A DNA stretch of 33,015 nucleotides from contig CACZXQ010000013.1 of assembly GCA_902785115.1 (NCBI GenBank), forward strand, positions 11,510 through 44,524. The letters are read 5' to 3'. Origin of the DNA: Oscillospiraceae bacterium (GTDB taxonomy: Bacteria; Bacillota; Clostridia; Oscillospirales; Oscillospiraceae). Numbering within the stretch: position 1 is the first letter of the stretch; each line of letters starts with the position of its first letter. Under the pieces are notes generated by a model that saw nothing but the letters and a program-made list of their open reading frames with translations, was not told the DNA's origin and made no database searches. The position numbers and the translations under genes were made by a program. This document shows positions 3,554 through 27,970 of this stretch, piece after piece.

Positions 3554-3559
3554 ATTATA
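3554..3559 (-). promoter_or_regulatory. Minus-strand -10 box of the araC-type gene
   Basis: The 95-base divergent spacer 3531-3625 contains a perfect TATAAT on the minus strand. Its -35 is weak (GACAAA at 18-base spacing or TGGACA at 20), so an activator or autoregulation is plausible. The implied leader is short, under 20 bases, with the ribosome site close to the transcript start. No convincing plus-strand promoter was found for the divergent ATPase gene; a TTGTCC near 3579 has only a poor -10. Confidence 0.45.
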
Positions 3560-3625
3560 TTAGCAAATCATATCCGTTTTGTCCATAACGAAAGAAAGTT
3601 TTCATACGATCAAGGGGGATTAAAA

Positions 3626-4705: not shown

Positions 4706-4715
4706 GGAGAAAGCT

Positions 4716-5558: not shown

Positions 5559-5576
5559 TTTAGGAGGATGATTGAC

Positions 5577-6377: not shown

Positions 6378-6415
6378 TTCGCCGGAAACTCGCTCCGCTC
6401 CTTCCTTCTTCCTCT

Positions 6416-6450
6416 CAAAATCAAATCCGCTTCGCCGGGCTTTGATTTTG
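6416..6450 (+). terminator. Hairpin after kduD, possible attenuator or terminator
   Basis: A 10-base perfect inverted repeat (CAAAATCAAA/TTTGATTTTG) with a 15-base GC-rich loop lies in the 117-base gap between kduD and the esterase gene. The right arm ends in a TTGATTTTG stretch but there is no clean U-tract, so intra-operon attenuation or RNA processing is as likely as full termination. Confidence 0.4.
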
Positions 6451-6494
6451 TATCACTGGGAGCGGTGAATCCCAAGGAAAGAAGGAAGAGCATC

Positions 6495-7274
6495 ATGAAA
6501 ATAGTTCGATTTGACGCAAACGACGCGCCGGTCATAGGTTATTTACACGACGACCATGACCGGCTCGTCGCGCATAAGACGCGCCCGGCGATCGTTATCT
6601 GCGCGAGCGGCGCGTACCGCTGGCTCTCCCCGCGGGAGAAAGACCCCGTGGCGCTGCGCTTTTCGGCGCTGGGTTATCAGTGCTTTTTGATCGACTACGC
6701 GGTCGGGGAGCGGGCAGGGGAGCTTCGCCCGCTGCGGCAGCTTGCCGCGTGTGTCAGCATTCTGCGCGAAAACGCCGAAGTCTGGCACATCGAGCGGGAG
6801 CATATCGCCGTCCTCGGCTTTTCCGCCGGGGGGCACCTCGCCGCAAGCCTCGGCACGCTCTGGCAGCGGGAGGAGCTGGTGTGCAGTCCCGGCTGTAAAC
6901 CCGACGCGCTTGTGTTATGCTATCCCGTGATCACGGCGGGGGACTTTGCCCACCGGGAATCCCTTGCGTATGTGAGCGGGGGAGACGATGCGCTGCGGGA
7001 GCTTTTGAGCCTTGAAAAGCGTGTCACCGCCCAGATGCCGCCCACCTTCCTCTGGCACTGCGTCGGGGACGAGAGTGTGCCGGTGGAAAACGCCCTGCTG
7101 CTCGCCGAGGCGATGCAGAGAGCGGGTGTTGACTATGAATGCCATCTCTTTGCACACGGCGCGCACGGCATCTCCACCTGCACGCAGGAGGTGGAGACGC
7201 CTTATCCCGACATCGCCCCCTGGTTTGACCTTTGCACAAGCTGGCTTAACCGCCAATTTCAATACACAATTTAA
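6495..7274 (+). CDS. Alpha/beta-hydrolase, putative acetylesterase
   Basis: A 259-residue serine hydrolase resembling the Axe1/BD-FAE-type carbohydrate acetylesterases. The nucleophile is in GFSAGG (Ser110). The likely acid is Asp192 in CVGDESVPVENA, and the base is His224 in HGAHGIS. The CASGAYRWLSPREKDP segment near residues 36-50 fits the oxyanion-hole region of such esterases. No signal peptide is seen. Its place between kduD and eda suggests removal of acetyl groups from imported pectic oligosaccharides, but that substrate is inferred from context only. ATG 6495 is chosen over an in-frame GTG 30 bases upstream because a GAAGGAAGAG ribosome site precedes the ATG. Confidence 0.8.
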   Translation: MKIVRFDANDAPVIGYLHDDHDRLVAHKTRPAIVICASGAYRWLSPREKDPVALRFSALGYQCFLIDYAVGERAGELRPLRQLAACVSILRENAEVWHIEREHIAVLGFSAGGHLAASLGTLWQREELVCSPGCKPDALVLCYPVITAGDFAHRESLAYVSGGDDALRELLSLEKRVTAQMPPTFLWHCVGDESVPVENALLLAEAMQRAGVDYECHLFAHGAHGISTCTQEVETPYPDIAPWFDLCTSWLNRQFQYTI

Positions 7275-7289
7275 GGAGGAACTACTGTT

Positions 7290-7931
7290 ATGAATGCTAT
7301 GAATACCGCGATCTCCAAGATCGGCGTTGTGCCGGTCATCAAGCTCAACCACCCCGAGCGCGACGCTGTGGGTCTTGCCAAGGCGCTCTGCGCGGGCGGC
7401 GTGCCTGTTGCCGAGGTCACCTTCCGTGCTGCCGGCGCCGATAAGGCCATCAAGCTCATGAAGGAGGCCTGCCCTGACATGATCGTCGGCGCCGGCACCG
7501 TCACCAACACTGCCCAGATCGACGCCGTGATCGCCGTCGGCGGCGACTTTATCGTCTCCCCGGGCTTCGATCCCGAGATCGTGGCCTACGCCCAGGCCAA
7601 GGGCATCCCCGTGTTCCCCGGCTGCACCACCGCCTCCGAGTATCATCAGGCGCTCAAGTTCGGCCTGGAGCTCATCAAGTTCTTCCCGGCTGAGCAGTCC
7701 GGCGGCCTTGCCAAGATCAAGGCGCTCTCCGCCCCCTTCCCCATGTTCAAGGTCATGCCCACCGGCGGCATCTCGCTCAAGAATCTGAAGGAATACATCT
7801 CCAATCCCGTCATTGCGGCCTGCGGCGGCAGCTACATGGTCACAGCTGACCTCATCGACAACAACAAGTGGGACGAGATCACCGAGCTCTGCAAGAAGTC
7901 CCGCGAGATCGTCGAGGAAGCAAGAGCCTAA
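7290..7931 (+). CDS. eda: 2-keto-3-deoxy-6-phosphogluconate (KDPG) aldolase
   Basis: A 213-residue class I aldolase of the KDPG/KHG family, usual length. It splits KDPG into pyruvate and glyceraldehyde-3-phosphate, the last step of the pathway. The Schiff-base lysine is Lys130 in ELIKFFPAE and the catalytic glutamate is Glu42 in VAEVTFR. The VGAGTV and PTGGI phosphate-binding motifs are present. It starts 15 bases after the esterase stop with a strong AAGGAGGA ribosome site. It precedes the two KDG kinases that make its substrate. Confidence 0.95.
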   Translation: MNAMNTAISKIGVVPVIKLNHPERDAVGLAKALCAGGVPVAEVTFRAAGADKAIKLMKEACPDMIVGAGTVTNTAQIDAVIAVGGDFIVSPGFDPEIVAYAQAKGIPVFPGCTTASEYHQALKFGLELIKFFPAEQSGGLAKIKALSAPFPMFKVMPTGGISLKNLKEYISNPVIAACGGSYMVTADLIDNNKWDEITELCKKSREIVEEARA

Positions 7932-7942
7932 AAACCCCTTCT

Positions 7943-8040
7943 GCCCAGTGCGCGCACTGGGCATCTCCCCCGAGGGGGGAGACATGCGCATGCTTCCCCC
8001 TTTGGGGGAAGTGGCCGAAGGCCGATAGGGGAACCCCGGT
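7943..8040. repeat. Composite palindromic intergenic element
   Basis: The 142-base gap between eda and the first kinase gene is filled by stacked palindromes. They are a perfect 20-base palindrome at 7943-7962, a TCTCCCCC/GGGGGAGA hairpin at 7964-7982, the palindrome CATGCGCATG at 7983-7992, a CTTCCCCC-TTT-GGGGGAAG hairpin at 7993-8011, GGCC-GAA-GGCC near 8013-8023, and GGGG-AA-CCCC near 8030-8037. The CTTCCCCCTTTGGGGGAAG core looks like a dispersed REP/MITE-type element common between Clostridia genes (from memory, not searched). It could also stabilise the mRNA ends. Confidence 0.7.
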
Positions 8041-8073
8041 CGGATTACTGAATAATAAAGGAGAAATGCTGTT

Positions 8074-9171
8074 ATGGAACTGAATTTACGCCCGAGAGAA
8101 GAATGCAAGTTTGACGCTGTGAGCCTTGGCGAGGTTATGCTGCGCCTCGATCCCGGCGAGGGGCGCATCCGCACCGCCCGCTCCTTCCGCGCCTGGGAAG
8201 GCGGCGGCGAATATAACGTCATCCGCGGCCTGCACAAGTGCTTCGGCATGAACACCGCCGTGATCACCGCCTTTGCTGACAACGAGGTAGGCAAGCTGAT
8301 GCGCGACTTCATCGAGCAGGGCGGCGTGAACACCGATCTGATTTTCTGGAAGAAGACTGACGGCATCGGCCGCATCTGCCGCAACGGCATCAACTTCACC
8401 GAGCGCGGCTTCGGCATCCGCGGCGCCGTGGGCTGCTCTGACCGCGCCAACACCGCGATTTCCCAGGCTCGCCCCGAGGACTTTGATTTTGACTACATCT
8501 TCGGCACACTCGGCGTGCGCTGGCTGCACACCGGCGGCATCTACGCCGCGCTCAGCGAGCAGAGCTGTGAGACCGTCATCGCCGCCTGCAAGGCCGCGAA
8601 GAAGTACGGCACCGTCGTGTCCTGCGATCTCAACTACCGCCCCTCCATGTGGAGCGCCATCGGCGGTCTTGAGAAGGCGCGAGAGGTCAACCGCGAGGTT
8701 GCCAAGTACGTTGACGTCATGATCGGCAACGAAGAGGACTTCACCGCCTGCCTCGGCTTTGAGATCGAGGGCAACGATGAAAACCTCAAGGAGCTGAACC
8801 TCGAAGGCTACAAGAAGATGATCGGCAAGGCCGCCGAGACCTACCCCAACTTCAAGGTCGTTGCGACCACGCTGCGCACCGTGAAGACCGCCACCGTCAA
8901 CGACTGGAAGGCCATCTGCTGGGCGGACGGCGAAATCTACCAGTCCAAGGAGTATAACGGCCTGGAGATCATGGACCGCGTCGGCGGCGGTGACTCCTTT
9001 GCCTCCGGTCTCGTGTACGGGCTCATGACCACGGGCGATGCGCTGCAGGCCGTCAACTACGGCGCTGCCCACGGCGCGCTCGCCATGACCACCCCGGGCG
9101 ACACCTCCATGGCAAGCAAGAACGAGGTCGAGGCCATCATGGGCGGCGCCGGCGCCCGCGTCAAGCGCTGA
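8074..9171 (+). CDS. kdgK: PfkB-family kinase, probable 2-keto-3-deoxygluconate kinase (copy 1)
   Basis: A 365-residue ribokinase-fold sugar kinase. The N-terminal SLGEVMLRLDPG strand, EGGGEYNVIRGL substrate region and C-terminal DRVGGGDSFASG signature (catalytic Asp307) identify a PfkB kinase. Its position after eda supports phosphorylation of KDG to KDPG. The substrate loop reads GGGEYNV where the neighbouring paralogue has GGSEANV, so substrate preference may differ. An AAAGGAG ribosome site precedes the ATG. The next kinase gene starts one base after its TGA. Confidence 0.85.
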   Translation: MELNLRPREECKFDAVSLGEVMLRLDPGEGRIRTARSFRAWEGGGEYNVIRGLHKCFGMNTAVITAFADNEVGKLMRDFIEQGGVNTDLIFWKKTDGIGRICRNGINFTERGFGIRGAVGCSDRANTAISQARPEDFDFDYIFGTLGVRWLHTGGIYAALSEQSCETVIAACKAAKKYGTVVSCDLNYRPSMWSAIGGLEKAREVNREVAKYVDVMIGNEEDFTACLGFEIEGNDENLKELNLEGYKKMIGKAAETYPNFKVVATTLRTVKTATVNDWKAICWADGEIYQSKEYNGLEIMDRVGGGDSFASGLVYGLMTTGDALQAVNYGAAHGALAMTTPGDTSMASKNEVEAIMGGAGARVKR

Positions 9172-9172
9172 T

Positions 9173-10258
9173 ATGGAACATACCAATCCGCTTATGAGCG
9201 GCGGCAATTCGCCCCGCTTCATCACCTTTGGCGAGATCATGCTCCGCCTGACTCCGCCGAACTATGAGAAGATCCGGGTCGCCACGAGCTTTGAGGCAAG
9301 CTACGGCGGGAGCGAGGCCAACGTCGCGCTCGCCCTGGCAAACCTCGGCATCGACAGCACCTTCTTCACCGTCGTGCCGAACAACTCCCTCGGCAAGAGC
9401 GCGGTCAGAATGCTGCGCTCGAACGACGTGCACTGCACCCCCGTCATCCTCTCCACCCAGGAGGAGACGCCCACCCACCGTCTCGGCACCTACTATCTTG
9501 AGACCGGCTACGGCATCCGCCCCAGCAAGGTCACCTATGACCGCAAGCACAGCGCCATCACCGAGTATGACTTCAGCAAGGTCGATCTGGACTGGCTGCT
9601 TTCGGACTTTGACTGGCTGCACCTGAGCGGCATCACGCCCGCCCTGTCCCCGAGCTGCGCGGACTTCATCCTTGCCTGCATGAAAAAGGCCAAGGAGAAG
9701 GGGCTCACCGTGAGCTTTGACGGCAACTTCCGCAGTCTGCTCTGGACCTGGGAGCAGGCGCGCGACTTCTGCACCCAGTGCCTGCCGTATGTGGACGTGC
9801 TGCTGGGTATCGAGCCCTATCACCTTTGGCGGGACGAGAACGACCACAGCAAGGGCGACTGGAAGGACGGCATCCCCATGCAGCCGAGCTACGAGCAGCA
9901 GGATGAGGTGTTTCAGGCCTTTGCCGAGCGCTACCCCAACCTCAAGTGCATGGCGCGGCATGTCCGCTTTGCCCATACCGGCAGCGAGAACAGCCTCATG
10001 GCCTATATGTGGTATCAGAACCACACCTTTGAAAGCCGCCTCTTCACCTTCAACATCCTTGACCGTGTGGGCGGGGGCGACGCCTTTGCCAGCGGCCTCA
10101 TCTACGCGATGATGAAGGGCTACAAGCCCATGGACACCATCAACTTCGCCGTGGCCAGCTCCGCCATCAAGCACACCATCCGCGGCGACGGCAACATCAC
10201 CGACGACGCCGAGAGCATCCGGCAGCTCATGAACATGAACTACGACATCAAACGATAA
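9173..10258 (+). CDS. kdgK: PfkB-family kinase, probable 2-keto-3-deoxygluconate kinase (copy 2)
   Basis: A 361-residue paralogue of the preceding gene. Features are TFGEIMLRLTPP at 18-29, YGGSEANVALAL at 44-55 and DRVGGGDAFASG with catalytic Asp303. The GGSEANVA substrate region is the more typical KDG-kinase form. The start codon is one base past the upstream TGA and has no recognisable ribosome site, so translation is probably coupled to the first kinase. The pair is diverged well beyond a recent duplication. Both being true KDG kinases is plausible, but either could act on a related keto-deoxy sugar acid. Confidence 0.85.
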   Translation: MEHTNPLMSGGNSPRFITFGEIMLRLTPPNYEKIRVATSFEASYGGSEANVALALANLGIDSTFFTVVPNNSLGKSAVRMLRSNDVHCTPVILSTQEETPTHRLGTYYLETGYGIRPSKVTYDRKHSAITEYDFSKVDLDWLLSDFDWLHLSGITPALSPSCADFILACMKKAKEKGLTVSFDGNFRSLLWTWEQARDFCTQCLPYVDVLLGIEPYHLWRDENDHSKGDWKDGIPMQPSYEQQDEVFQAFAERYPNLKCMARHVRFAHTGSENSLMAYMWYQNHTFESRLFTFNILDRVGGGDAFASGLIYAMMKGYKPMDTINFAVASSAIKHTIRGDGNITDDAESIRQLMNMNYDIKR

Positions 10259-10269
10259 AAAAGAAAAAC

Positions 10270-10304
10270 CTGCTCCCATCGGTTGAAAACGCCGATGGGA
10301 GCAG
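10270..10304 (-). terminator. Hairpin between the second kinase gene and uxaC
   Basis: A perfect 13-bp stem (CTGCTCCCATCGG/CCGATGGGAGCAG) with a nine-base loop. The A-rich tract lies on its left (10258-10268), so the U-tract of an intrinsic terminator would be on the minus strand. On the plus strand it is followed by CCCCTGCG. On plus-strand mRNA it is better read as a stability or processing hairpin. Confidence 0.4.
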
Positions 10305-10333
10305 CCCCTGCGAAGAAAGGCGGATTGATTACA

Positions 10334-11767
10334 ATGAGAGCATTTATGGACAAGGATTTCCTGCTGGAAACCGAAACAGCCAAGCACCTGTTCCATGACT
10401 ATTCCGAGCATATGCCCCTTGCGGACTACCACTGCCACATCTCTCCCCGCGAGATCTATGAGGATCGCCGCTTCAACAATCTGACCGAGGTCTGGCTCGG
10501 CGGCAAGAACCCCGACGGCAGCTATTTCGGCGACCACTACAAGTGGCGTGTCATGCGCTCCAACGCCGTCCCGGAGGAGTACGTCACCGGCGAAAGAGAC
10601 GCGTACGAGCGCTACCTCAAGTTTGTCGAGGCGCTGCAGATGGCGATCGGCAACCCCATGTACCACTGGTGCAATCTTGAGCTGCGCCAGTTCTTCGGCT
10701 TTATGAAGCCCCTGACTCCCGAGACCGCCGAGGAGGCTTGGAACTTCTGCAACGACAAGCTGCAGCATGACCCGAACCTCACCGTGCGCGGCATCATCAA
10801 AAAGGCCAACGTCGCCATGGTCGGCACCACCGACGATCCCATCGACTCCCTCGAGTGGCACAAGAAGATCGCGGAGGATCCCAGCATCACCGTCAAGGTC
10901 TGCCCCTCCTTCCGTCCCGACAAGGCCATCAACATCTCCAAGCCCGGCTTCGCGGCGTATATCGAGAAGCTGGCCAAGAGCGTCGGCAAGGAAACGCTTG
11001 CAAGCGCCGATGAGGTCAAGGCCGCTCTTGTCGAGCGCCTGGAGTTCTTCGCCGCAATGGGCTGCCGCGCCAGCGACCACGGTCTCGATTACATCCCCTT
11101 CCGTCCCGCCTCCGATGACGAGGTGAACGCCATCTTCTGCAAGGTCATGGCGGGTGAGTGCGTCAGCGTCGAGGACGCGGAGAAGTACCAGACCGCGATC
11201 CTGCTGTGCTTAGGCCGCGCCTACCACCGTCTCGGCATCGCCATGCAGATCCATTACTCCTGCCTGCGCGGCGTGAACACCCGCATGAACCGCCTGCTCG
11301 GACCCGACACGGGCTTTGACATGATCGCCCAGAACACCTGCGGCGGCGACATCGCCGCTTTCCTGGCCGCCCTGGACGAGACCGGCGAGTGCCCCAAGAC
11401 CATTCTCTACTCCCTCAACCCCGCCGACAATGAGCAGCTTGGCACGCTGATCGGCTGCTTCCAGTCCGACGAGGTGCCCGGCAAGATCCAGCACGGCTCC
11501 GCCTGGTGGTTCAACGACACCAAGTCCGGCATGGAGGCGCAGATGAAGTCCCTGGCCAATCTCGGCCTGCTTGGCAACTTCGTCGGCATGCTCACCGATT
11601 CCCGCTCCTTCCTGAGCTATGCGCGGCACGACTACTTCCGCCGCATCTTCTGCAACCTGGTGGGCAACTGGGTCGAAAACGGCGAGTACCCCGATAACGA
11701 CGCCGCGCTCAAGCGCATCGTCGAGGGCGTCAGCTACAAGAACGCTGAAAGATATTTTAATCTCTGA
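10334..11767 (+). CDS. uxaC: Glucuronate/galacturonate isomerase
   Basis: A 477-residue metal-dependent amidohydrolase-fold isomerase that converts D-galacturonate to D-tagaturonate (and D-glucuronate to D-fructuronate). The N-terminal DYHCHISP metal motif, RASDHGLDYIPF, MQIHYSCLRGVN and the C-terminal SFLSYARHDYFRRI segment are typical of UxaC, and the length matches the family. ATG 10334 is chosen because an upstream in-frame ATG at 10283 lies inside the 10270-10304 hairpin loop and would add a non-family extension. An AAAGG-type site lies about 13 bases before 10334. It starts the saturated-galacturonate branch and is followed by uxaB. Confidence 0.96.
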   Translation: MRAFMDKDFLLETETAKHLFHDYSEHMPLADYHCHISPREIYEDRRFNNLTEVWLGGKNPDGSYFGDHYKWRVMRSNAVPEEYVTGERDAYERYLKFVEALQMAIGNPMYHWCNLELRQFFGFMKPLTPETAEEAWNFCNDKLQHDPNLTVRGIIKKANVAMVGTTDDPIDSLEWHKKIAEDPSITVKVCPSFRPDKAINISKPGFAAYIEKLAKSVGKETLASADEVKAALVERLEFFAAMGCRASDHGLDYIPFRPASDDEVNAIFCKVMAGECVSVEDAEKYQTAILLCLGRAYHRLGIAMQIHYSCLRGVNTRMNRLLGPDTGFDMIAQNTCGGDIAAFLAALDETGECPKTILYSLNPADNEQLGTLIGCFQSDEVPGKIQHGSAWWFNDTKSGMEAQMKSLANLGLLGNFVGMLTDSRSFLSYARHDYFRRIFCNLVGNWVENGEYPDNDAALKRIVEGVSYKNAERYFNL

Positions 11768-11783
11768 AAAGAGGATCATGATT

Positions 11784-13241
11784 ATGGACAGATTAAGTTT
11801 TGCGACCCTGGAAAAGCAGGGCTATGAGGGCTATCTTCTGAAGGACGCGCCGGAAAAGATCGTGCAGTTCGGCGAGGGCAACTTCCTGCGCGCCTTCGCG
11901 GATCACTTTGTGGATGAAATGAACGAGAAGGCCGGCTTCAACGCCAAGGTCGTGCTGGTGCAGCCGCGCGGCGGTCACCCCGAGGCGGCCGACCGCTTCA
12001 GCGAGCAGGACGGGCTCTATACCCTGATCCTGCGCGGACGCGAGAACGGCCAGCCCGTGGAGCGCACCCGCGTCATCTCCGCGGCCTCCCGCTGTCTCGA
12101 CCCCAAGCGCGATTGGGCGAAGCTTCTCGACTGCGCGAGAAATCCCGAGCTGCGCTTTGTGATCTCCAACACCACCGAGGCCGGCATCGCCTTCGATCCC
12201 GCCTGCAAGCAGGATGACGCGCCGCCTTCCGCCTTCCCCGCCAAGCTCACGCTTTTCCTGCATGAGCGCTGGAAGCTCGGCTACAAGGGCATCATCATCC
12301 TCTCCTGCGAGCTCATCGACCACAATGGGCAGGAGCTGCACCGCTGCGTACAGGAGTACGTCAAGCTCTGGGGGCTGGAGGCGGACTTCGCCGCGTGGCT
12401 CGAAAAGGAGAACGTCTTCTGCTCCACGCTGGTTGATCGCATCGTCACCGGCGGTGCAAGAGGCGAGGCCGCGGCTGCTCTGTGCGAGAAGTTCGGCTAC
12501 GAGGATCAGCTCATTGACACCGGCGAGGTCTTTGCCGCATGGGTCATCGAAGGCCCCCAGTGGATCAAGGAGGAGTTCCCGTTTGAAAAGGCCGGGCTTC
12601 CCATCCAGGTCGTGGACGACGTGACCCCCTACAAGCAGCGCAAGGTCCGCATCCTGAACGGCGCGCACACCTCCATGGTGCTTGGCGCTTACCTCGCGGG
12701 CAAGAATATCGTGCGCGACTGCATGCAGGACAAGGCCATCCGCACTTACCTGGAAAAGACCATGTTCGAGGAGATCATCCCCACGCTCGACCTGCCGCGC
12801 GACGAGGTGGAGGGCTTTGCCGCCTCCGTGATCGACCGCTTTGATAACCCCTATATCGACCATCAGCTTCTGGACATCGCGCTCAACTCCGCCTCCAAGT
12901 GGAAAGCCCGCGTGATGCCGAGCCTGACCGCGTTTGTCAAGCGTCAGGGGAAGCTCCCCAAGCGCCTGACCTTCTCCCTCGCCGCCTTCATCGCCTTCTA
13001 CCACAAGGGCGAGCGCGACGGCGCAGCCTATCCCGTGCGGGACGATGAGTGGGTGCTGGACTTCTTCGCCGCCCACAAGAACGATGATAACGCCGCTCTC
13101 GCCAAGGCCGTCGTGAACGACGAACGCCTGTGGGACGGTGCGCTTGCCGAGATTGACGGCCTCGAGGCCGCTGTCGCCGCGGCGCTTGACCGCATTGACG
13201 AGATCGGTATGTATGAAGCCATGAAGGAGTGCGCCGAATGA
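11784..13241 (+). CDS. uxaB: Tagaturonate reductase (altronate oxidoreductase)
   Basis: A 485-residue NAD-dependent polyol dehydrogenase of the long-chain mannitol-dehydrogenase family. It reduces D-tagaturonate to D-altronate. The N-terminal IVQFGEGNFLRAF strand begins the cofactor-binding domain. The catalytic K-x4-N-x2-H signature of the family is visible in KVRILNGAH. ATG 11784 is preferred over the in-frame ATG 11778 because GAGGA at 11771-11775 sits eight bases from the former and two from the latter. Its TGA overlaps the uxaA ATG. Confidence 0.94.
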   Translation: MDRLSFATLEKQGYEGYLLKDAPEKIVQFGEGNFLRAFADHFVDEMNEKAGFNAKVVLVQPRGGHPEAADRFSEQDGLYTLILRGRENGQPVERTRVISAASRCLDPKRDWAKLLDCARNPELRFVISNTTEAGIAFDPACKQDDAPPSAFPAKLTLFLHERWKLGYKGIIILSCELIDHNGQELHRCVQEYVKLWGLEADFAAWLEKENVFCSTLVDRIVTGGARGEAAAALCEKFGYEDQLIDTGEVFAAWVIEGPQWIKEEFPFEKAGLPIQVVDDVTPYKQRKVRILNGAHTSMVLGAYLAGKNIVRDCMQDKAIRTYLEKTMFEEIIPTLDLPRDEVEGFAASVIDRFDNPYIDHQLLDIALNSASKWKARVMPSLTAFVKRQGKLPKRLTFSLAAFIAFYHKGERDGAAYPVRDDEWVLDFFAAHKNDDNAALAKAVVNDERLWDGALAEIDGLEAAVAAALDRIDEIGMYEAMKECAE

Positions 13242-14716
13242 AGCTCATTCGCATTCACCCCAATGACAACGTGGCGGTCGCCTTGACGGATCTGAAGGCC
13301 GGGGAGGAGCTCACGCGCGACGGCCTCACCGTCACCGCTGCCGAGGATGTGGCGCGGGGGCACAAGCTTGCCCTGCGCCCCATCGCCGAGGGCGAAGCCG
13401 TCGTCAAGTACGGAAACCCGATCGGCATTGCCAGGGCGGATATCCCGCAGGGCGCCTGGGTGCATGTGCACAACGTGCGCACCGGCCTCTCCGAGACCGC
13501 CGAGTACGAATACTGCCACAAGACCTACCCCTTGCCCGAGCTTGCCCCGCGCACGTTTATGGGCTACCGCAGACCGGACGGACGCGCCGCCGTGCGCAAC
13601 GAACTCTGGATCGTGCCGACGGTGGGCTGCGTCAACAGCATCGCCGCCGCCCTGGTGCGCGAAAACCAGCACCTCGTCACCGGCAGCATTGACGGGCTCT
13701 ACACCTTTGCCCACCCCTACGGCTGCAGCCAGATGGGGGACGACCATGCCCAAACCCGCAAGCTCCTCGCCGCCTTGGTGCGCCACCCGAACGCGGGCGG
13801 TGTGCTGGTGCTCTCCCTCGGCTGCGAGAACCTCACGCAGGAGCAGTTCAAGCGTGAACTCGGCGAGTGGGACGATCGGCGCGTGAAGTTTCTCGTCTGC
13901 CAGCAGTTTGAGGACGAGCTGGAAGAGGGCGCGAAGCTCCTCAAGGAGCTGGCAGAGTATGCGTCCCAGTTTCAGCGCGAGGAGATCCCGGCTTCGGAGC
14001 TTGTGATCGGCATGAAGTGCGGCGGCTCCGACGGCCTCTCCGGCATCACCGCAAACCCCATGGTCGGGCGCTTTTCCGACAGGCTTGTCTCCCTTGGCGG
14101 CTCGACCGTGCTGACCGAGGTGCCCGAGATGTTCGGTGCGGAAAACATCCTCTTCTCCCGCTGCAAGGATGAGGAAGTCTTCCAAAAGGCCGTGCGCATG
14201 GTCAACCGCTTCAAGGATTACTTCGTCAGCCACGGGCAGGTGGTCTATGAAAACCCCAGCCCCGGCAACAAGGCCGGCGGCATCACAACGCTCGAGGACA
14301 AGAGCTGCGGCTGCGTCCAGAAGGGCGGCAGCGCCCAGATCGTGGACGTGCTGGAGTACGCCGAGCCTGTCACCAAGAAAGGGCTCAACCTGCTCTCCGG
14401 CCCGGGCAATGACCTCGTCTCCGCGACCGATCTGACCGCCGCGGGCGCGCACATCATCCTCTTCACCACCGGGCGCGGCACGCCCTTCGGCGCCCCGGCT
14501 CCCACGGTGAAGATTTCCACAAACTCCGCGCTCTACAACAAGAAGGGCAACTGGATCGACTTCAACGCCGGTTCCGTGGCCGAGGGCGAGAGTCTGGACG
14601 CCGCGGGCGACCGTTTGCTGGACTATGTGCTGCGCGTGGCCTCCGGTGAAAAGACCAAGGCCGAGAAGCACGGCGCGAAGGAAATTGCCATCTTTAAGGA
14701 CGGTGTAACACTGTAA
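13238..14716 (+). CDS. uxaA: Altronate dehydratase
   Basis: A 492-residue UxaA/GarD-family dehydratase that converts D-altronate to 2-keto-3-deoxygluconate, joining the KduI/KduD branch. It has the short N-terminal SAF-like domain (first roughly 95 residues) and the large C-terminal domain with cysteine-rich signatures YGCSQMGDDH, KCGGSDGLSG and KSCGCVQKGG, probable metal ligands. The ATG overlaps the uxaB stop (ATGA), with AAGGAG eight bases upstream. It is the last gene of the pectin cluster and is followed directly by a long hairpin. Confidence 0.95.
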   Translation: MKLIRIHPNDNVAVALTDLKAGEELTRDGLTVTAAEDVARGHKLALRPIAEGEAVVKYGNPIGIARADIPQGAWVHVHNVRTGLSETAEYEYCHKTYPLPELAPRTFMGYRRPDGRAAVRNELWIVPTVGCVNSIAAALVRENQHLVTGSIDGLYTFAHPYGCSQMGDDHAQTRKLLAALVRHPNAGGVLVLSLGCENLTQEQFKRELGEWDDRRVKFLVCQQFEDELEEGAKLLKELAEYASQFQREEIPASELVIGMKCGGSDGLSGITANPMVGRFSDRLVSLGGSTVLTEVPEMFGAENILFSRCKDEEVFQKAVRMVNRFKDYFVSHGQVVYENPSPGNKAGGITTLEDKSCGCVQKGGSAQIVDVLEYAEPVTKKGLNLLSGPGNDLVSATDLTAAGAHIILFTTGRGTPFGAPAPTVKISTNSALYNKKGNWIDFNAGSVAEGESLDAAGDRLLDYVLRVASGEKTKAEKHGAKEIAIFKDGVTL

Positions 14717-16937: not shown

Positions 16938-16971
16938 ATGGATGGGGATGTGATTTCACATCCCCATCCAT
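16938..16971 (-). terminator. Perfect hairpin at the end of the atp operon
   Basis: A 16-bp perfect stem (ATGGATGGGGATGTGA and its complement) with a two-base loop overlaps the last base of the atpC stop. No U-tract follows on the minus strand. It marks the 3' end of the ATP synthase operon just before cls. Confidence 0.6.
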
Positions 16972-17237
16972 CATTCTATGATTGCCGCGTCGGAGCAGAG
17001 CAGGGTCAGCTCATTGTCACCGACGGTTGCGACGCCGTTGCTCACACGGACGCGAAGTGGGCTGCCGTCCTCCAGCGTACAGAGAACGATCCCACGGCTC
17101 ACCGCGCAGAGCATCGGCGCGTGATTTGCGAGAATACCGACCGAACCGAAGCCGGTCGGGAGCTTCGTGGATTTCACCCGCGTGTCAAGCACGGTGGCGT
17201 CACCGGTGACGACGGCGAAACGAAACAGCTTTTCCAT
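16971..17237 (-). CDS. atpC: ATP synthase epsilon subunit, short form lacking the C-terminal helices
   Basis: An 88-residue epsilon subunit of the central stalk. It contains the whole N-terminal beta-sandwich (FRFAVVTGDATVLD, FGSVGILANHAPML, RVRVSNGVATVGDNELTLLCSDA) and then stops. The usual 40-50 residue helical hairpin, which inhibits ATP hydrolysis or binds ATP in many bacteria, is absent. The TGA is followed at once by the operon hairpin, with no downstream remnant, so this looks like a native short form. Short epsilon subunits are known in some green sulfur bacteria. It starts nine bases after the atpD stop with a GAGGAGG site. Confidence 0.92.
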   Translation of the reverse strand: MEKLFRFAVVTGDATVLDTRVKSTKLPTGFGSVGILANHAPMLCAVSRGIVLCTLEDGSPLRVRVSNGVATVGDNELTLLCSDAAIIE

Positions 17238-17246: not shown

Positions 17247-18698
<1,452 letters not shown>

Positions 18699-18731: not shown

Positions 18732-19601
18732 TCATGACCTGTCTGTGCTGTTCTGACGTAAGGCCTCCGCGCCGCCGGCGATCTCGGAGATCTCCGTGGT
18801 GATGGCGGCCTGGCGGGCGTGGTTGAGCTGCAGCGTGAGCTTTCCGATCAGTTCCTCGGTGTTGTCCGCCGCGGCGGTCATGGCGGTCATGCGGGCGGCG
18901 TGTTCGCCGGTGCGCGCCTCCAGCAGCGCCGCATGGACGCTGTTTAAGAGCGTCAGGTCAACGAGTGTTCGCAGAAGGCTGTCCCGATCCGGCTCGAAGA
19001 TCATGCCGCGCGCGTCCGTCTCCGCTTCCGCTTCGGGGAGCAGGAGAGGGAGCAGGCTGCGGCTGCCGGGGTTTTGCTGTAGGACAGATTTGAACTGCTG
19101 GTACACCAGCACGATCTCGTCCGCCTCGCCGCTCGTGTACAGCTCTCGCAGGGCATCAGCGATCACCTGGGCTTCGCTGCTCTCCGGCGCATCGCTGAGC
19201 TCAAAGCTCGCGCGAATGGGGATGCCCGCGCCGGGGACCATGTCCTTGCCCCAGCGGCCGCAGACGATCAGGGATTTTTCCCGCGTCTCCGCTGCCGCAA
19301 GCTCCTCAAGGTAGCGCAGAAGCGCGCTGTTGTAGGTGCCGCAGAGGCCGCGATTGCCGACGATCAGCACATAGCAGACCTTCTCGTTCTGCCCGTGCGC
19401 CTGCAGTAGGGGAAGATCCGTTCCGCCGACGGCGACCTTTTGCAGCATACTCTGCGCCTGTGCGGCGAAGTCCTTCAGCGAGGAATAAGCGGTCTGTGTA
19501 CGGCGAAGCTTCGCCGCCGCGACCATCTTCATGGATTTTGTGATCTGCCGGGTGTTTTCCACACTGCGGATGCGTGTGCGGATGGCGCGCAGATTCGCCA
19601 T
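18732..19601 (-). CDS. atpG: ATP synthase gamma subunit
   Basis: A 289-residue central-stalk rotor subunit. The N-terminal helix ANLRAIRTRIRSVENTRQITKSMKMVAAAKLRR is canonical in content, and the C-terminal helix ends with LNHARQAAITTEISEIAGGAEAL. ATG 19601 is chosen because it gives the family MANLRAI start and has GAGGAG about eight bases upstream. An in-frame ATG 15 bases earlier overlaps that site. The gene begins 25 bases after the stop of the alpha-containing fusion gene. Confidence 0.95.
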   Translation of the reverse strand: MANLRAIRTRIRSVENTRQITKSMKMVAAAKLRRTQTAYSSLKDFAAQAQSMLQKVAVGGTDLPLLQAHGQNEKVCYVLIVGNRGLCGTYNSALLRYLEELAAAETREKSLIVCGRWGKDMVPGAGIPIRASFELSDAPESSEAQVIADALRELYTSGEADEIVLVYQQFKSVLQQNPGSRSLLPLLLPEAEAETDARGMIFEPDRDSLLRTLVDLTLLNSVHAALLEARTGEHAARMTAMTAAADNTEELIGKLTLQLNHARQAAITTEISEIAGGAEALRQNSTDRS

Positions 19602-19626
19602 TTCATCACTCCTCAAAACTCAAAAC

Positions 19627-21882
19627 TTATTGAAACTCCCCCGCGAACTCCTCGACCGCCTGGCGCAGGCACTTGATCTGACCCGCGTCGAGCTTTTTAC
19701 CGCTGCGGATGATGTCGTCCATACGGGGAAGGCGCTCGTGCACGAAGGCGAGCAAGCCCTTTTCAAAGCGAGCAATGTCCTTGAGCGCCACCTTGTCGGC
19801 GTAACCCTCGTTGACCGCCCAGATGGAGATCACCTGGTCGCAGACGTCCATGGGACTGTACTGGGGCTGCTTCAAGAGCTCGGTCATGCGGTCGCCCCGG
19901 TGCAGCGTCGCGCGCGTGGTCTTATCGAGGTCGGAGCCAAACTGCGAGAAGGCAGCCAGCTCCCGGTACTGCGCCAGATCCATGCGCAGCCGCCCGGCTA
20001 CCTGCTTCATCGCTGCAAGCTGCGCCGAGCTGCCCACGCGGCTGACCGAGAGGCCGACGTTTACCGCCGGGCGGACGCCCGCGTTAAAGAGATCGGTCTC
20101 AAGGAAAATCTGACCGTCGGTGATGGAGATGACGTTTGTGGGGATATAGGCCGAGATGTCGCCGGCCTGGGTCTCGATGATGGGCAGGGCGGTCATGCTG
20201 CCGCCGCCAGCCTCCGGGCTGAGGCGCGCCGCGCGCTCGAGGAGCCGGGAGTGCAGATAAAACACGTCGCCGGGGTAGGCTTCGCGTCCGGGCGGACGAT
20301 GTAGCAGCAGGGAAATCTCACGGTAGGCGACGGCCTGTTTCGAGAGGTCGTCATACACGATCAGCACGTCCCTGCCCTGGTACATGAAGTATTCGCCCAT
20401 CGCGGCGCCCGCGTAGGGCGCGATGTAGAGCATGGGCGCGGATTCCGAGGCGCTGGCGCAGACGACAATGGTGTAGTCCATCGCGCCGTGCTGCCGCAGT
20501 TTCTCCACCACGCCCGCCACGGTGGATTCCTTCTGCCCGATGGCGACGTAGATGCAGATCATGTCCTTGCCCTTCTGGTTGATGATGGTGTCGAGGGCAA
20601 TGGCGGTTTTGCCGGTCTGGCGATCGCCGATGATGAGCTCGCGCTGACCGCGGCCGATGGGAACCAGCGCGTCAATGGCCTTGATGCCGGTCTGCATGGG
20701 CACTGAAACGCTCTTGCGCTCGATGACGCCGGGAGCGGGGCATTCGATGGGGCGGCTGTGGTGGCATTGCAGCTCACCCGCGCCGTCGAGGGGATTGCCC
20801 AGCGCGTCGACCACGCGGCCGATGAGCTTCGAGCCCACCGGAACCTCGATGATGCACCCGGTGCGGCGCACCCAGTGGCCTTCCTGCAGATTGTCGTAAT
20901 TGCCGAGTAGCACGACGCCGACGTTGTCCGGCTCTAAGTCCATGACCATGCCGCGCAAATTCCCCTTCATCTCCAGCAGCTCGCCCGCCATCGCGTCGGA
21001 CACGCCGGAGACGCGGCAAATACCGTCCGACACGCTGATGACGGTGCCGATCTGGTAGACCTCGGGGCTTTGATCGGCCTTTTGAAGCTGCTTTTTGAGC
21101 GACTCGATCAGCTCCTTGTCGGTGCTGTCGAAGCTCGCAAGCTGCCGCCGCGTGTGCTCCAGAAGGCCCGCGGCGCTGCCGTCGTACACGGTGTCGCCGA
21201 GCTGCAGCTTGACGCCGGCGATGAGCTCCGGGCGCACTTCGCGCTCGAGCAGGAGCTCCGGCTCCTCCCCGACGCGCTGCAGGGCCTTCTCCACCGCGGC
21301 GCAGAGCTGCGCGACCTGCTCGTCCGTGAGCGCCTCGCTGCTCGCGGCGCGCACGCGGAAGCTCCCCTTGCTGCGGATGCCGATGAGGTCGCCCGGCGTG
21401 ATGTGAAGGCGCTCGGGCAGCTTTTCGAGAAAGCGCTCGGTCATGCGGGCGCGCGCCTCGGCGTTCTCGGGCCGCGCGATCTGCTCGGCCGCGGCGGCCG
21501 TGATCTCCTCGGCGGCCTTCTGGTTGACAAGCAGGCGCTGCCGGTGGGTCAGGCGGCGCAGGTCCTTATGCGCCTCGAGCGCGACCTGCTCCGCGTCGCG
21601 TTTCCCGTTTTCACCGGAAACGCGGCGAATATCGTCCGCGCTCTGGCGCGCCTGCCGCAGGATCTCCTCCCGCTCGGCCGCGCCCCTGGCGTTCTCCCCC
21701 TCGATGCCCTCGAGGAGCTGTTTTGCGTTTTCCCGGGATTCCGCGGACTGCCGCAGATCCCCGCTCACCTTTTCGCGATGGTCCTCAATGCCTTTCACGA
21801 CGAGCTTGCGGCCCACAAAATACAGGCCGCCGCCGAGGATCGCGAAGTTGATCAGCGCGTAGATGATGTTCCATCCGCCCAT
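19627..21882 (-). CDS. atpA: ATP synthase b-prime / delta C-terminal domain / alpha fusion subunit
   Basis: One continuous 751-residue open frame. Residues 4-24 are a membrane helix ([20 protein letters not shown]). Residues 25-160 are a charged coiled coil like a b subunit. Residues about 164-250 match the C-terminal domain of delta/OSCP ([10 protein letters not shown], then [14 protein letters not shown] and [19 protein letters not shown]). Residues 253-751 are a complete alpha subunit: TVISVSDGI at 280-288, P-loop GDRQTGKT at 419-426, and [19 protein letters not shown]. The six-helix N-terminal domain of delta is missing, and no separate delta gene exists in the operon. A strong AAGGAGGG site precedes the ATG. 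No ATG lies between codons 147 and 298, so a separate alpha from internal initiation is unlikely. A mycobacterial b-delta fusion is known, but a fusion through to alpha is unfamiliar to me. Confidence 0.93.
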
Positions 21883-21910: not shown

Positions 21911-22339
21911 TCATTCCTCCGAATCGAGGATCCGGGCCGTGAGCAGCGCAGTCAGCTCGCCGCTCTTTTCCGCGAGCAGCGCCTCCTCCTGCGTGTTCGT
22001 CGCGTCAAGCTGCGCCTTGCCCTCGCGCAGCGCGTCCTTCGCGCGGCTCTTCGCCTCGCGCAGAGAATCGGCGCGAAGCTGCTCGCCCTCGCTCTCGGCC
22101 GCGGCGATCAGATGGGCAGCCTCCTCGCGGCTGGCCTCCTTCTCCTCGGCAAGGCGATCGCGGTTGGCCTGCACGGCCGCCTGCGCCTCCCGCTGCGCGG
22201 TCATGCCCGCGTCGATCTTCGCCTGCCGCTCGTCGAGCAGCCTGCCGACCGGGCCGAAGAGAAAGCGCTTGAGCACGAAGTAGAGCAGGAAGAAGTTGAT
22301 GATCGTCCATATGAGCTCAGAGATATTGATGCTTAACAT
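21911..22339 (-). CDS. atpF: ATP synthase b subunit
   Basis: A 142-residue peripheral-stalk subunit. It has an N-terminal membrane helix (ISELIWTIINFFLLYFVLKRF) and a long charged coiled coil from about residue 35 to the end (QREAQAAVQANRDRLAEEKEA). It is slightly shorter than the usual 155-170 residues. A GGGGAGGAG site precedes the ATG. Because the next gene encodes a second b-type segment, this protein probably pairs with it as a b/b-prime heterodimer. Confidence 0.92.
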   Translation of the reverse strand: MLSINISELIWTIINFFLLYFVLKRFLFGPVGRLLDERQAKIDAGMTAQREAQAAVQANRDRLAEEKEASREEAAHLIAAAESEGEQLRADSLREAKSRAKDALREGKAQLDATNTQEEALLAEKSGELTALLTARILDSEE

Positions 22340-22367: not shown

Positions 22368-22607
<240 letters not shown>

Positions 22608-22824: not shown

Positions 22825-23514
22825 TTATTCTTCTTCGATGGCTTCGGAGATGTAGATCGACAAAAGCATCGTGAACACGATGGCCTGCAGCGCGCAGAAG
22901 AGCAGGCTCAGCACCTGCATGATGAGCGGCGCGGCGATCGGGAAAAGCTCGTAGAGCTGCTCGGTCACCGTCTCCTCGCCGTACATGTTGCCGTAAAGAC
23001 GCAGGGCCAGCGACAGGGGCCGGATGATCTGCTCGATGAGGTTCAGCGGCAGCATCAGGATGATGAGCAGGGCGGGCTTGATGCTCGCAAAGCTCTTGAG
23101 ATAGGGGCCGAGACCGCGCTCCTTCACGCCGATGACGTGCGTCGTGAAGAAGGCGACGACGCCGAGCCCCGCCGTGACCGACAGGCAGGCCGTCGGCACC
23201 GCAAAGCCCGTGACATGCCCCGCGCCGGGGAGCAGCCCCGAGTAGTTGCAGACGATGATGAAGATGAAAAAGGTGCCGAGGATCGGGAGATATTTGCGCG
23301 CGTGCTCCATGCCGAGGATGTCGGCAAAGAAATTGCGCAGCCCGCCGACCGCGAGCTCCGCCCCCGTCTGCAGGGGGCCGGGGATCTCCTCCAGCTTGCG
23401 CGTGGCAAGCCAGGACAGGAGCGTGATCAGCGCGATGATCGCCCACATGGTCGTGACCGTGCCTGTCACCTCCAGCGGGCCGATGCGAAACAGCACATTC
23501 GACGCCTCTTCCAT
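22825..23514 (-). CDS. atpB: ATP synthase a subunit
   Basis: A 229-residue membrane stator subunit that forms the ion half-channels. The essential arginine is Arg172 in LALRLYGNMYGEE. The IILMLPLNLIEQIIRPLSLALRLYGNM helix is canonical in content, and about five to six membrane helices are visible. It is the first gene of the operon in the window. No atpI gene precedes it. The ribosome site is GAGGTGATTCT. Confidence 0.95.
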   Translation of the reverse strand: MEEASNVLFRIGPLEVTGTVTTMWAIIALITLLSWLATRKLEEIPGPLQTGAELAVGGLRNFFADILGMEHARKYLPILGTFFIFIIVCNYSGLLPGAGHVTGFAVPTACLSVTAGLGVVAFFTTHVIGVKERGLGPYLKSFASIKPALLIILMLPLNLIEQIIRPLSLALRLYGNMYGEETVTEQLYELFPIAAPLIMQVLSLLFCALQAIVFTMLLSIYISEAIEEE

Positions 23515-25141: not shown

Positions 25142-27970
25142 TTACGTTACGTTGTTCGCGCCCTCGCGCAGCGCCGCGCCGTTCCAGCTCGCGAGGTCGC
25201 AGTTGAAGAGATAGATGCTGTCATAGCTGCAGTCATGGATCGAGCAGCCGGTGAAGGCAATGCTCTTGCAGTTGGAAAATTGCGCGCCCATGTTGGAGCA
25301 CTCGAAAATCTCTGTGTCCTCCACGGTGACGCCTGCGCAGTTGTTTGCGAGGATGCCGTTGACGCCGCAGCCAAAGAGGCCGCAGCCGCGCACAGCGATC
25401 TCCCCGCAGTTGGTAAACTCCAGCACGTCGCCCGCGCAGGAGCCGGGGGCTTCCCGAAGATGCCCGGCGGTCAGCTCCTCCACAGAGATGTTCGAGCAGG
25501 AGTCGAAGTTCAGCACCTCGGCGTAGCGGGGCACGGCCTGCAGCGTGGTCAGAAGCTTGCCCCGGCCGATGATGTGGAAGTTCTCCACACCCGTGATGAC
25601 CAGATTGGGACCGTCAAATTCGTCGCGCCAGTAGTAGAAGCTTCCGCCGTAGCCGCCGTAGTTGGCGGCCTTGGAGAAGTCCAGCAGCTCGCAATCGACA
25701 TAGATCGTCGTGTCGCTCCCGATGGCGGCGAGAAAATCATCCACGTTATCCACATGGTAAACGTTTTCGCCGCGCTCGTTCATCTCGCCCTCGGGCTTTA
25801 CCGCCTCGGGCTGGTGCGGGCCGTAGTAGGGCGTCATGTAGGGCTGCTGCTCCATCGTGTAGAGATCGCTCAGCTCCAGCGCCTTGCCGTCGCCGTCCAC
25901 TACGGTTCCGGCGTTCACGCCGTCGTAGTTAAAGTACATGCCCGCGCCCTGCACGTCGTTGCGGGTAAAGCCGCAGTCGGCAATGATCGGGCTCTCTCCC
26001 GTGACATGAAACAGGCCGCCAAACGCCCAGAGATAGTGCGTGCCGTCCTCGCGGGTCTGCTCCTCGGCGGGAAGGGCGATGCTGTTGTCGTGTATGTTAC
26101 AGCCGCGCATCTGCACCTCGAGCGAATTTGCACTGTGTAATAGAGTTTGCGCCTTATTTTCGTAAATGTCAACATTAAATATTGCAAAACCTGTTGTTGC
26201 CTGGGCGCTGAAGAGGTCAAAGGCCATGGTTTCGCCCTTCTGACCGCAATGGTAGACCGCGCCGCTGTACATCCGCAGGTCCCAGCAGCCCCGGGCGTAG
26301 AGCGCGCCCTCGCTGCAGTCGTAGATGTCCGTGAGCGAGACGGTGACGCCGCGGCAGTTTTCCGCCCGGACGCCCAGTGTGCCGCAGCCGTAAAGCCCGC
26401 AGGCATTCACGTTCATGCCCTCGCAGGAGTCAAATTGCAGCACGCCGCCGGTGCAGGTGCCGGTCGATTCGGTGTGCCCCGCCGTGAGGGAGAGGAGGTT
26501 TACGTTCGCGCACTGCTGGAAGGCGAGCACATTTGCGTAGCGCGGCTCGGTGACGATGCGGGTCGTCGCCCGGTCACGCCCGACGAGGTAGAGATTCTGC
26601 ACCCCGGAGATCACAAGCTGCTTGCCGTCGCCCACGTCCTCCCAGCGGACGCTTTCGTTGCCGGTCTCCACGCCGTAGCTTTTGGCCTGGGCGAGATTAT
26701 ATTCGCCCTCGGCAAGCTGGAGGACGCGATCATTGCCGATGGCGGCGATGAGCTCGTCCACCGTGCGCACGGTGATGTGCTCTTCGGGGATGTTTGCGCC
26801 GGACAGCTCAGTGAAGTCGTTTTCGTTCGGCATCGGCGTGGGGGCAATGTCGATGGGATTTGCCGTCACGACGACGCTGGGCTTGTCCTCGGTGGTGACA
26901 GTGTTCATTAAATGGGGGCCGAAAGCCGCGCCGCAGCCGGACAGCAGCAGGATCGCGGCCAATGCCAGGGCGATACCCGCCCGGCCTCTGTTTTTGTATT
27001 TCATAATTTGCAGTAACCTTTCTTTCAGGTTCCGCTTCTCGGTTGCAAAGCTCATGGCGACCACGCTTCCGGGAAGCGGACGGTCGGCGGCGAGCGTCAA
27101 AAGCAGCTCGCCGTAAAGTTGTTTTTCGTCCCGCCCCATGCGCCGCAGCAGCCGCTCGTCACAGCTCAGTTCGCAGGCACGGTCGATCTCCCGGCGAAAA
27201 AGCGCCAGGAAGGGGTTAAACCAGTGCACACAGCTCACCAGCACCGCAAACCACTTGTAGGCCAGATCGCCCCGGCGGTAGTGCGTCAGCTCATGGCGCA
27301 GGATGCCGCGCAGCATATTTTCGTCATACACGCGATCCGGCAGCACGATGACCGGGCGCAGAAGCCCCAGGAGCATCGGCGTGCGCACTGCGCGGCTTCG
27401 CGCGAGCGCGGGCCAGGGGGAGGCGTTCAGGGCTTCGAGCGCAAGGCGGTCGATCTCCCGCGCGGGGAGAAAGCTCTTTGCGAGCGTGCGGCGAAAGCGC
27501 GCATAGCCCAGCGTGTACCGCAGGAGGCTGAACATCAGCCCCACGAGGTATACGCCGCCCCAGAAGCCCCAGCTTGCGAACACGGGGCGCAGATCGTTCC
27601 AAAGCGCGGAGAGGGAGAAGCCGGGCTTTTGCGCCTGCGGAGCGGGCGCGGTCTCGGGCGTGTCATCGTTCAGGGTAAAGCTCTGCGCGCTGTCCGGGTT
27701 GTAGACGCGCGGGGAAAAGGCGCTCTCCTGCGCGGAGGGGGCGCTAACGGTGACGGAAGGCGCGGGAGCGCTCGCGGCTTGCGTATTTTCCGCCGTGGGC
27801 AGCAGTCCCGGCAGCGGCAGCACAAAGCGCAGCAGCACCAGCAGCCAGGCGTAATAGGCAAAGCTTGCCGGGAGCCGGGCTTTCAGCAGTCTTTGCAGCA
27901 GCATCAGCACCGCCGCCAGCATACAGCCGCCGAGCGACAGGCTCAGCAGCATGCGAAGCAGTTCCTCCAT
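25142..27970 (-). CDS. BlaR1-like M56 membrane metalloprotease with duplicated beta-helix sensor domains
   Basis: A 942-residue protein. Membrane segments lie at about 7-28, 35-56, 134-152 and 331-346. The M56 zinc site is HELTH at 226-230 with a likely third ligand Glu267 in RACELSCDE. In BlaR1/MecR1 a penicillin-binding domain follows the last membrane helix. Here residues about 398-930 form two homologous right-handed beta-helix units instead. Unit 1 starts at VRTVDELIAAIGND (401) and unit 2 at VDNVDDFLAAIGSD (740). Both contain LTAGH, a GxCxGxVLxF segment and CGL(Y/F)GCG. The last membrane segment ends in LLSGCG, which resembles a lipobox. It is read with blaI three bases upstream. Signal binding outside the cell leading to BlaI cleavage is the inferred role. 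The ligand is unknown. Confidence 0.88.
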   Translation of the reverse strand: MEELLRMLLSLSLGGCMLAAVLMLLQRLLKARLPASFAYYAWLLVLLRFVLPLPGLLPTAENTQAASAPAPSVTVSAPSAQESAFSPRVYNPDSAQSFTLNDDTPETAPAPQAQKPGFSLSALWNDLRPVFASWGFWGGVYLVGLMFSLLRYTLGYARFRRTLAKSFLPAREIDRLALEALNASPWPALARSRAVRTPMLLGLLRPVIVLPDRVYDENMLRGILRHELTHYRRGDLAYKWFAVLVSCVHWFNPFLALFRREIDRACELSCDERLLRRMGRDEKQLYGELLLTLAADRPLPGSVVAMSFATEKRNLKERLLQIMKYKNRGRAGIALALAAILLLSGCGAAFGPHLMNTVTTEDKPSVVVTANPIDIAPTPMPNENDFTELSGANIPEEHITVRTVDELIAAIGNDRVLQLAEGEYNLAQAKSYGVETGNESVRWEDVGDGKQLVISGVQNLYLVGRDRATTRIVTEPRYANVLAFQQCANVNLLSLTAGHTESTGTCTGGVLQFDSCEGMNVNACGLYGCGTLGVRAENCRGVTVSLTDIYDCSEGALYARGCWDLRMYSGAVYHCGQKGETMAFDLFSAQATTGFAIFNVDIYENKAQTLLHSANSLEVQMRGCNIHDNSIALPAEEQTREDGTHYLWAFGGLFHVTGESPIIADCGFTRNDVQGAGMYFNYDGVNAGTVVDGDGKALELSDLYTMEQQPYMTPYYGPHQPEAVKPEGEMNERGENVYHVDNVDDFLAAIGSDTTIYVDCELLDFSKAANYGGYGGSFYYWRDEFDGPNLVITGVENFHIIGRGKLLTTLQAVPRYAEVLNFDSCSNISVEELTAGHLREAPGSCAGDVLEFTNCGEIAVRGCGLFGCGVNGILANNCAGVTVEDTEIFECSNMGAQFSNCKSIAFTGCSIHDCSYDSIYLFNCDLASWNGAALREGANNVT

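Follow-up and report, generated by a model that had tools for sequence, protein, structure and literature searches.

Together, the analyses show that one gene in the window, the 33,015-nucleotide stretch of Oscillospiraceae DNA under study, is a single 751-codon open reading frame on the minus strand (21882→19627) that joins a b'-type stalk helix, the C-terminal domain of the delta/OSCP subunit (dCTD) and a complete alpha subunit of the F-type ATP synthase, and that its carriers are mostly uncultured gut and rumen bacteria. On sequence evidence, we consider it on balance probable that these genes encode a natural F-type enzyme with more than one b/b' stalk, up to three, each alpha carrying its own dCTD and b'.

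That an F-type enzyme has a single peripheral stalk and a single a-subunit has been treated as a fixed design rule; alpha is present in three copies per F1, delta in one. According to Ueno et al. (2025; PMC12229609), it is the delta N-terminal domain that underlies this rule, by lying on the threefold axis and so restricting the stalk number to one. In Bacillus PS3 these authors deleted delta residues 2-104 and fused the rest to alpha; the resulting delta-deltaN–alpha FoF1 had up to three peripheral stalks and three a-subunits, showed an H+/ATP ratio of 5.8 vs 3.0 and made ATP at low proton-motive force (PMC12229609). In that study, three-stalk particles were extremely rare on cryo-EM grids, which the authors attribute to dissociation, ATP-driven proton pumping was below that of the wild type, and a version with stably bound stalks is called for. 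A few genomes suggested to them that nature may break the rule: a natural dCTD–alpha fusion is cited from Acidaminococcus fermentans and two UniProt entries, and a multi-stalk enzyme is proposed (PMC12229609).

The fusion frame begins with ATG behind a strong ribosome-binding site (-12.8 kcal/mol). The original prediction of an uninterrupted 751-codon, three-part frame proved correct: the frame is real at 19627-21882 on the minus strand, and its domains were recovered by Pfam, NCBIfam and structure prediction. It lies in a compact operon with the gene order atpB-atpE-atpF-[fusion]-atpG-atpD-atpC, the features of which are as follows.

22825..23514, minus strand: atpB, a subunit, 229 aa (PF00119, 161.6 bits)
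22368..22595, minus strand: atpE, c subunit, 75 aa (PF00137, 54.3 bits)
21911..22339, minus strand: atpF, separate b subunit, 142 aa, probable partner of b' (PF00430, 54.8 bits)
19627..21882, minus strand: b'-dCTD-alpha fusion gene, 751 aa (open reading frame, Pfam, NCBIfam, structure prediction)
21403..21882, minus strand: fusion residues 1-160, membrane helix and b'-type stalk helix (Pfam ATP-synt_B, predicted helices)
21136..21402, minus strand: fusion residues 161-249, delta/OSCP C-terminal domain without the N-terminal domain (OSCP profile, model)
21055..21135, minus strand: fusion residues 250-276, linker and alpha N-terminal helix at 258-267 (start-codon scan, model)
19630..21054, minus strand: fusion residues 277-751, complete alpha subunit with P-loop GDRQTGKT (TIGR00962, sequence)
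18732..19616, minus strand: atpG, gamma subunit (PF00231, 278.5 bits)
17247..18632, minus strand: atpD, beta subunit (TIGR01039, 802.3 bits)
16971..17237, minus strand: atpC, epsilon subunit, beta-sandwich domain only, 88 aa (PF02823, 56.3 bits, residues 5-84)

The stalk part matched ATP-synt_B (PF00430) over fusion residues 6-125 with 27.6 bits, just under the Pfam cut-off of 28; in the genome search b' scored 27.4 bits, or 32.2 with its in-frame neighbours. The OSCP profile (PF00213) was matched at residues 172-248 by positions 100-172 of 172 (40.8 bits, cut-off 22.3). No match to positions 1-99, which correspond to the delta N-terminal six-helix domain, was found in the fusion chain or elsewhere in the 86.9% complete genome, and the predicted structure agrees, so that the loss of this domain, proposed earlier, is borne out. 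All three Pfam alpha domains were matched within residues 277-746. The NCBIfam atpA model TIGR00962 aligned residues 255-750 with its positions 4-501 of 503 (789.7 bits, cut-off 484.45), and the N-ATPase alpha model TIGR03324 reached 644.6 bits, below its curated cut-off of 750.5. An AlphaFold2 model computed from 68 aligned members (mean pLDDT 78.9, pTM 0.71, with the alpha stretches 572-600 and 609-619 under pLDDT 50) predicted stalk helices at residues 4-136 and 138-158, a confident dCTD at about 163-249 (block pLDDT 83-92), and, for alpha, a short N-terminal helix at 258-267 with the barrel starting at 274. The domain order is physically natural, the stalk rising from the membrane to the dCTD at the top and from there to the alpha N-terminus. 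When residues 159-298 were searched against the PDB by sequence, the best match was chain I of the PS3 construct (9jc1_I, 5.5e-17), colinear across its designed junction. The fold search likewise returned 9jc1 chains I, K and J as the top three (575 columns, 57-59% identity, E 1.2e-60 or better). The mycobacterial b-delta chain 7jg5_d (445 aa) was among the PDB matches listed.

All subunits of the operon are F-type by Pfam and NCBIfam profiles, and the c subunit contains the motif EALTIYG, which we take to be proton-type. The epsilon of the window, at 88 aa, is without C-terminal helices; the epsilon stop-to-stop frame of 18 fetched relatives is at least 112 aa in 15 and 95-99 aa in L067, L078 and L079. 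In the engineered multi-stalk enzyme the C-terminal part of epsilon had likewise been removed. Elsewhere in the window, a pectin and galacturonate utilisation cluster occupies 44-14716 on the plus strand (GH28, GH88, KduI, KDPG aldolase, PfkB kinases, UxaC, and mannitol-dehydrogenase-type and altronate dehydratase-type proteins), and a 942-aa protein encoded at 25142-27970 on the minus strand combines an M56 (BlaR1-type) peptidase domain with a right-handed beta-helix region behind it.

The genome to which the window belongs (2.03 Mb, 86.9% complete, 5.9% contaminated) was searched for further copies of these subunits. As originally proposed for the operon, there is no second delta gene: the only OSCP match in this 86.9% complete genome is the fusion itself, which is also the only F-type alpha over the cut-off. 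Weaker alpha-profile matches correspond, by score and length, to beta and to probable V/A-type subunits, and those on contigs C34 and C32 are V/A-like on the same grounds. The cell may thus hold a second rotary ATPase. One a gene and one separate b gene besides b' were found, with a further weak PF00430 match below the cut-off.

This single set of a and b genes fits an enzyme with one working stalk, in which just one b' would find a b and the a-subunit while the two remaining arms stayed idle, and the weld would only strengthen the stalk-to-F1 joint; spare arms would need no b, though gene copy does not set stoichiometry. Such an arrangement would burden each enzyme, throughout the clade, with two idle membrane helices, which is wasteful, and the engineered dCTD–alpha enzyme is described as averaging about two stalks that brought a-subunits along (PMC12229609). 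We regard a single working stalk as rather unlikely.

Two of the outcomes considered at the outset as fatal to the fusion were a frameshift and an assembly collapse at the junctions. Among 80 named loci, out of 490 relatives, 67 have an intact frame, 63 of these with a delta profile match and four without; the remaining 13 comprise seven broken by a frameshift or contig end, two split and four unfused. Median dN/dS (NG86, 21 pairs of seven close sequences) was 0.41 for the linker/junction, 0.35 for b', 0.58 for dCTD and 0.13 for alpha, indicating that the junction is translated. The conserved frame excludes both outcomes, and together with the junction dN/dS it rules out an assembly artefact or pseudogene. 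The dCTD appears to be under weaker constraint than alpha, since its dN/dS is the highest and four of the 67 intact loci lack a delta match.

The chain might also be a polyprotein from which, once translated, a b'-dCTD piece and free alpha are cut to form an ordinary single-stalk enzyme with a b-delta part resembling the mycobacterial one. The linker varies in length and sequence and could be a cutting site, and b'-dCTD has changed more quickly than alpha (median dN 0.27-0.34 vs 0.06). The linker alignment, however, shows no outstanding conserved motif, and cutting would leave each F1 with three b'-dCTD pieces, while the other alpha N-termini would lack a delta N-terminal domain to hold them. 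We consider this improbable.

When related genomes were searched for the same three-part architecture, as proposed, it turned up in five families, all belonging to a single order. A query made of residues 1-252 matched 54 of the 300 genomes covered within the window's own family. A three-part frame of at least 741 aa was present in 21 of these 54, in eight genera, and five more were interrupted by contig ends; in genomes G178, G228 and G267 the frame measures 745-748 aa. The operon order a, c, b, fusion, gamma, beta is kept in all 19 fetched loci of this type (L062-L080), and epsilon is present in 18 of them, the fetched stretch of L070 stopping at beta. At the level of the order, 18 of 394 genomes from five families matched at E 4e-32 or better, the next match being at 9.7e-20; domains were checked in ten fetched loci, one of them truncated by a contig end, which together with the window cover all five families. 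In wider samples of the class (391 genomes) and the phylum (398 genomes), only the window's own genome matched at 4e-32 or better, the best other matches being 2.1e-21 and 2.4e-26, respectively. In most of the other class and phylum matches listed, a stop codon separates delta from alpha; some frames without such a stop, about 580-690 aa long, are candidate dCTD-alpha or delta-alpha fusions. Loci L179, L189, L198 and L202 from Verrucomicrobia/PVC were promising candidates that turned out to be unfused, and L121 (genome G038) gave an OSCP match (E 3.5e-6) in a stretch where no ATP synthase model found a gene. Most of the named records bear the titles Oscillospiraceae, Ruminococcaceae, Clostridiales or Clostridia, and many stem from rumen or gut samples; the title of one (CCFG01000005) names Amazonia massiliensis MS4.

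Besides the fusion, no F-type alpha over the cut-off was found in 18 of 20 fusion genomes, the window's own included, some of which are only 66-83% complete; G148 and G178 carry an ordinary alpha beside it. The gene rnfC, a marker of the ion-pumping ferredoxin:NAD complex, was found in 14 of 15 fusion genomes including the window's own, a physiology that agrees loosely with a multi-stalk enzyme. Genomes G174 and G224 (same genus, 95% complete) had no F-type alpha over the cut-off and two weak V/A-like matches each.

Within the family, loci were picked to represent the types of architecture, not as a census. They comprise a separate full delta (type A, L115-L120); a full or nearly full delta–alpha chain of 662-706 aa (type B, L082-L091), in which the delta profile match begins only at position 29-72 of 182 in six of ten; dCTD–alpha of 579-629 aa (type C, L092-L100); the b'-dCTD-alpha architecture of the window (type D); and b-dCTD with alpha separate (type G, L107-L114). 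In type F (L102-L106) delta is reduced to a lone dCTD, 76-86 aa in length, whose gene is placed between those for b and alpha, and the 681-aa frame of L101 has a tandem pair of dCTDs ahead of alpha. L103 and L104 are two ATP synthase operons in one single-contig genome (G098), with equal gene order and near-equal frame sizes; the L104 alpha is broken up over two frames.

Trees of alpha plus beta were built from 75 and 51 loci, L132 and L190 being frameshifted loci. The quick trees are weak at deep forks, and their supports, like the E-values of small profile searches, are approximate. The type D loci form one clade (SH-aLRT 99, starred) that also contains three split relatives. Two of these have a separate gene for b' and, by eye, two dCTD repeats beside a dCTD-alpha gene (L187:2560-3507, 316 aa; L188:3898-4869, 324 aa), and the third has b' and one dCTD in a gene separate from dCTD-alpha (L081:3342-4073, 244 aa); Pfam OSCP was below the cut-off in the b'-dCTD genes of L187 and L081 and absent in that of L188. 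Hence, the weld between b' and alpha is not indispensable. A single origin of all delta-alpha fusions was rejected, all fused types as one clade giving p-AU 4e-69. In the mixture-model tree, type D was separated from most dCTD-alpha loci and grouped instead with unfused relatives (support 94, not starred); types B and C formed one clade (100, starred) with two unfused rows inside, and the type C locus L098 fell with types F and G instead. This placement suggests that b'-dCTD-alpha probably arose independently of most dCTD-alpha fusions.

An internal start could yield free alpha from the fusion gene, so that only part of the alphas would be fused. We examined the usual alpha start for ATG, GTG or TTG preceded by a Shine-Dalgarno of at most -6 kcal/mol, with control windows inside alpha as background, in 79 of 99 fused type D loci, 19 of 20 loci of delta-alpha types (B, C and E) and 19 of 23 unfused loci. 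A strong start was present in five of the 79 type D loci, compared with about ten expected from background (13.2%), and any start codon in 36 of 79, compared with a background of 61%. Strong starts were found in one of 19 loci of types B, C and E, and in 17 of 19 unfused loci; 18 of these 19 have some start. In the window's fusion gene, none of the three codons occurs between residues 236 and 283. Although some type D loci do have a start, both frequencies lie below the in-gene background and unfused relatives keep theirs; an internal start is thus disfavoured, and we rate it as highly improbable.

Type G provided a positive control. Gamma and beta share one stop-free frame in all eight of its loci, from three genera, and the internal beta start was strong in each of them (-10.3 to -12.2 kcal/mol), three of the eight being near-identical. 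These frames are 767-814 aa long with a linker of about 16 residues, and the internal beta start is translated KEAN or similar. By sequence, a tether between rotor (gamma) and stator (beta) would either be made or have to be cut. That the beta start is kept in type G and none in the alpha fusions suggests that an internal start is retained where fusion would harm. A similar gamma frame runs into beta in L096, with beta broken by a frameshift.

With three alphas per F1 and no internal start kept, each alpha should come with a stalk of its own. On the multi-stalk reading, which we favour, the fusion would be made and kept as one chain, so that each of the three alphas bears its own dCTD and b' arm. 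Loss of the delta N-terminal domain would leave the threefold axis free and allow more than one stalk to assemble, each b' pairing with the separate b (142 aa) into b/b' stalks, up to three. The extra stalks would recruit extra a-subunits, the least certain step, and H+/ATP would then rise with the number of a-subunits, making ATP synthesis possible at low proton-motive force. The use of all three arms, the b'-b pairing and the recruitment of a-subunits are what we infer, the last by analogy with the engineered enzyme. The suggestion that a covalent link replaces the docking function of the missing domain stands in part: a stalk-alpha link is the natural reading, but the 3:1 stoichiometry, by which each alpha would bring a stalk, had been missed. 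The strongest form, a natural three-stalk F-type enzyme with half a b/b' stalk per alpha, up to three a-subunits and an H+/ATP of up to three times the c-ring value, is a possibility to which we give somewhat less than even chances.

Several stalks might also be combined with a single a-subunit, the extra ones bracing F1 in a V-type-like manner and leaving the ion-to-ATP ratio unchanged. V-type enzymes normally have three stalks, bound to the non-catalytic subunits. The stalks observed in the engineered enzyme, by contrast, are reported always to have had an a-subunit bound (PMC12229609), and bracing alone seems to us quite improbable.

The multi-stalk reading is supported by 9jc1 being the top match in both sequence and fold together with the stalks of that engineered enzyme, and by the 18 of 20 fusion genomes in which no other F-type alpha over the cut-off was found, the few internal starts and the single clade. 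Against it stand the split relatives L081, L187 and L188, the ordinary alpha in G148 and G178, the 36 of 79 loci with some start codon and the weaker constraint on dCTD, as well as the few three-stalk particles and lower pumping recorded for the engineered enzyme (PMC12229609). A protease could also release alpha, which likewise counts against it.

These results describe a whole clade that is without the delta N-terminal domain, has dCTD on alpha, and has a stalk helix welded on too. Natural multi-stalk enzymes, and an ion-to-ATP ratio varied through the number of a-subunits, thereby become directly testable, with near relatives that have full or nearly full delta–alpha, dCTD–alpha, a lone dCTD or separate genes as natural controls. 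If its strongest, three-stalk form is true, these fermenting gut bacteria could sustain ATP synthesis at proton-motive forces below those that ordinary enzymes need, and in the b' weld nature would have a remedy for the loss of stalks that limited the engineered version.

No description of a b'-dCTD-alpha chain was found in searches of open-licence literature, and such proteins are expected to sit in sequence databases as "alpha subunit". In mycobacteria, a second b-like helix is fused to delta beside a separate b, both delta domains are kept and alpha is separate. The window's gene resembles this b-delta in that a stalk helix is joined to delta although a separate b exists as well, and differs in having alpha in the same frame and only the dCTD of delta. 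V/A-type ATPases, which have two or three peripheral stalks, would be alike in working if three stalks sit on non-catalytic subunits; they differ in that the operon of the window is F-type throughout, its stalk parts being b and OSCP. The Acidaminococcus fermentans fusion is alike in missing the delta N-terminal domain and having dCTD joined to alpha. That part of the architecture, originally supposed to be undescribed, is already in print; it is the b'-containing version that the open-licence searches did not find. No b is mentioned in the chain of the Acidaminococcus fermentans fusion (PMC12229609), whereas the window's fusion adds b'. The type C loci L092-L100 have the same architecture as described for that fusion, Acidaminococcus itself being absent from the tree. 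The closest counterpart is the PS3 delta-deltaN–alpha enzyme (9jc1): in both, dCTD is on the alpha N-terminus and the delta N-terminal domain is gone, and neither has a separate delta or alpha, as far as the window's 86.9% complete genome shows. The PS3 construct was designed, whereas the present chain is natural and known here from its genes. The stalks of the construct are separate b2 dimers, whereas here b' is covalent in each chain, with a separate b beside it, and would be the stably bound stalk version for which the authors of the engineered enzyme called.
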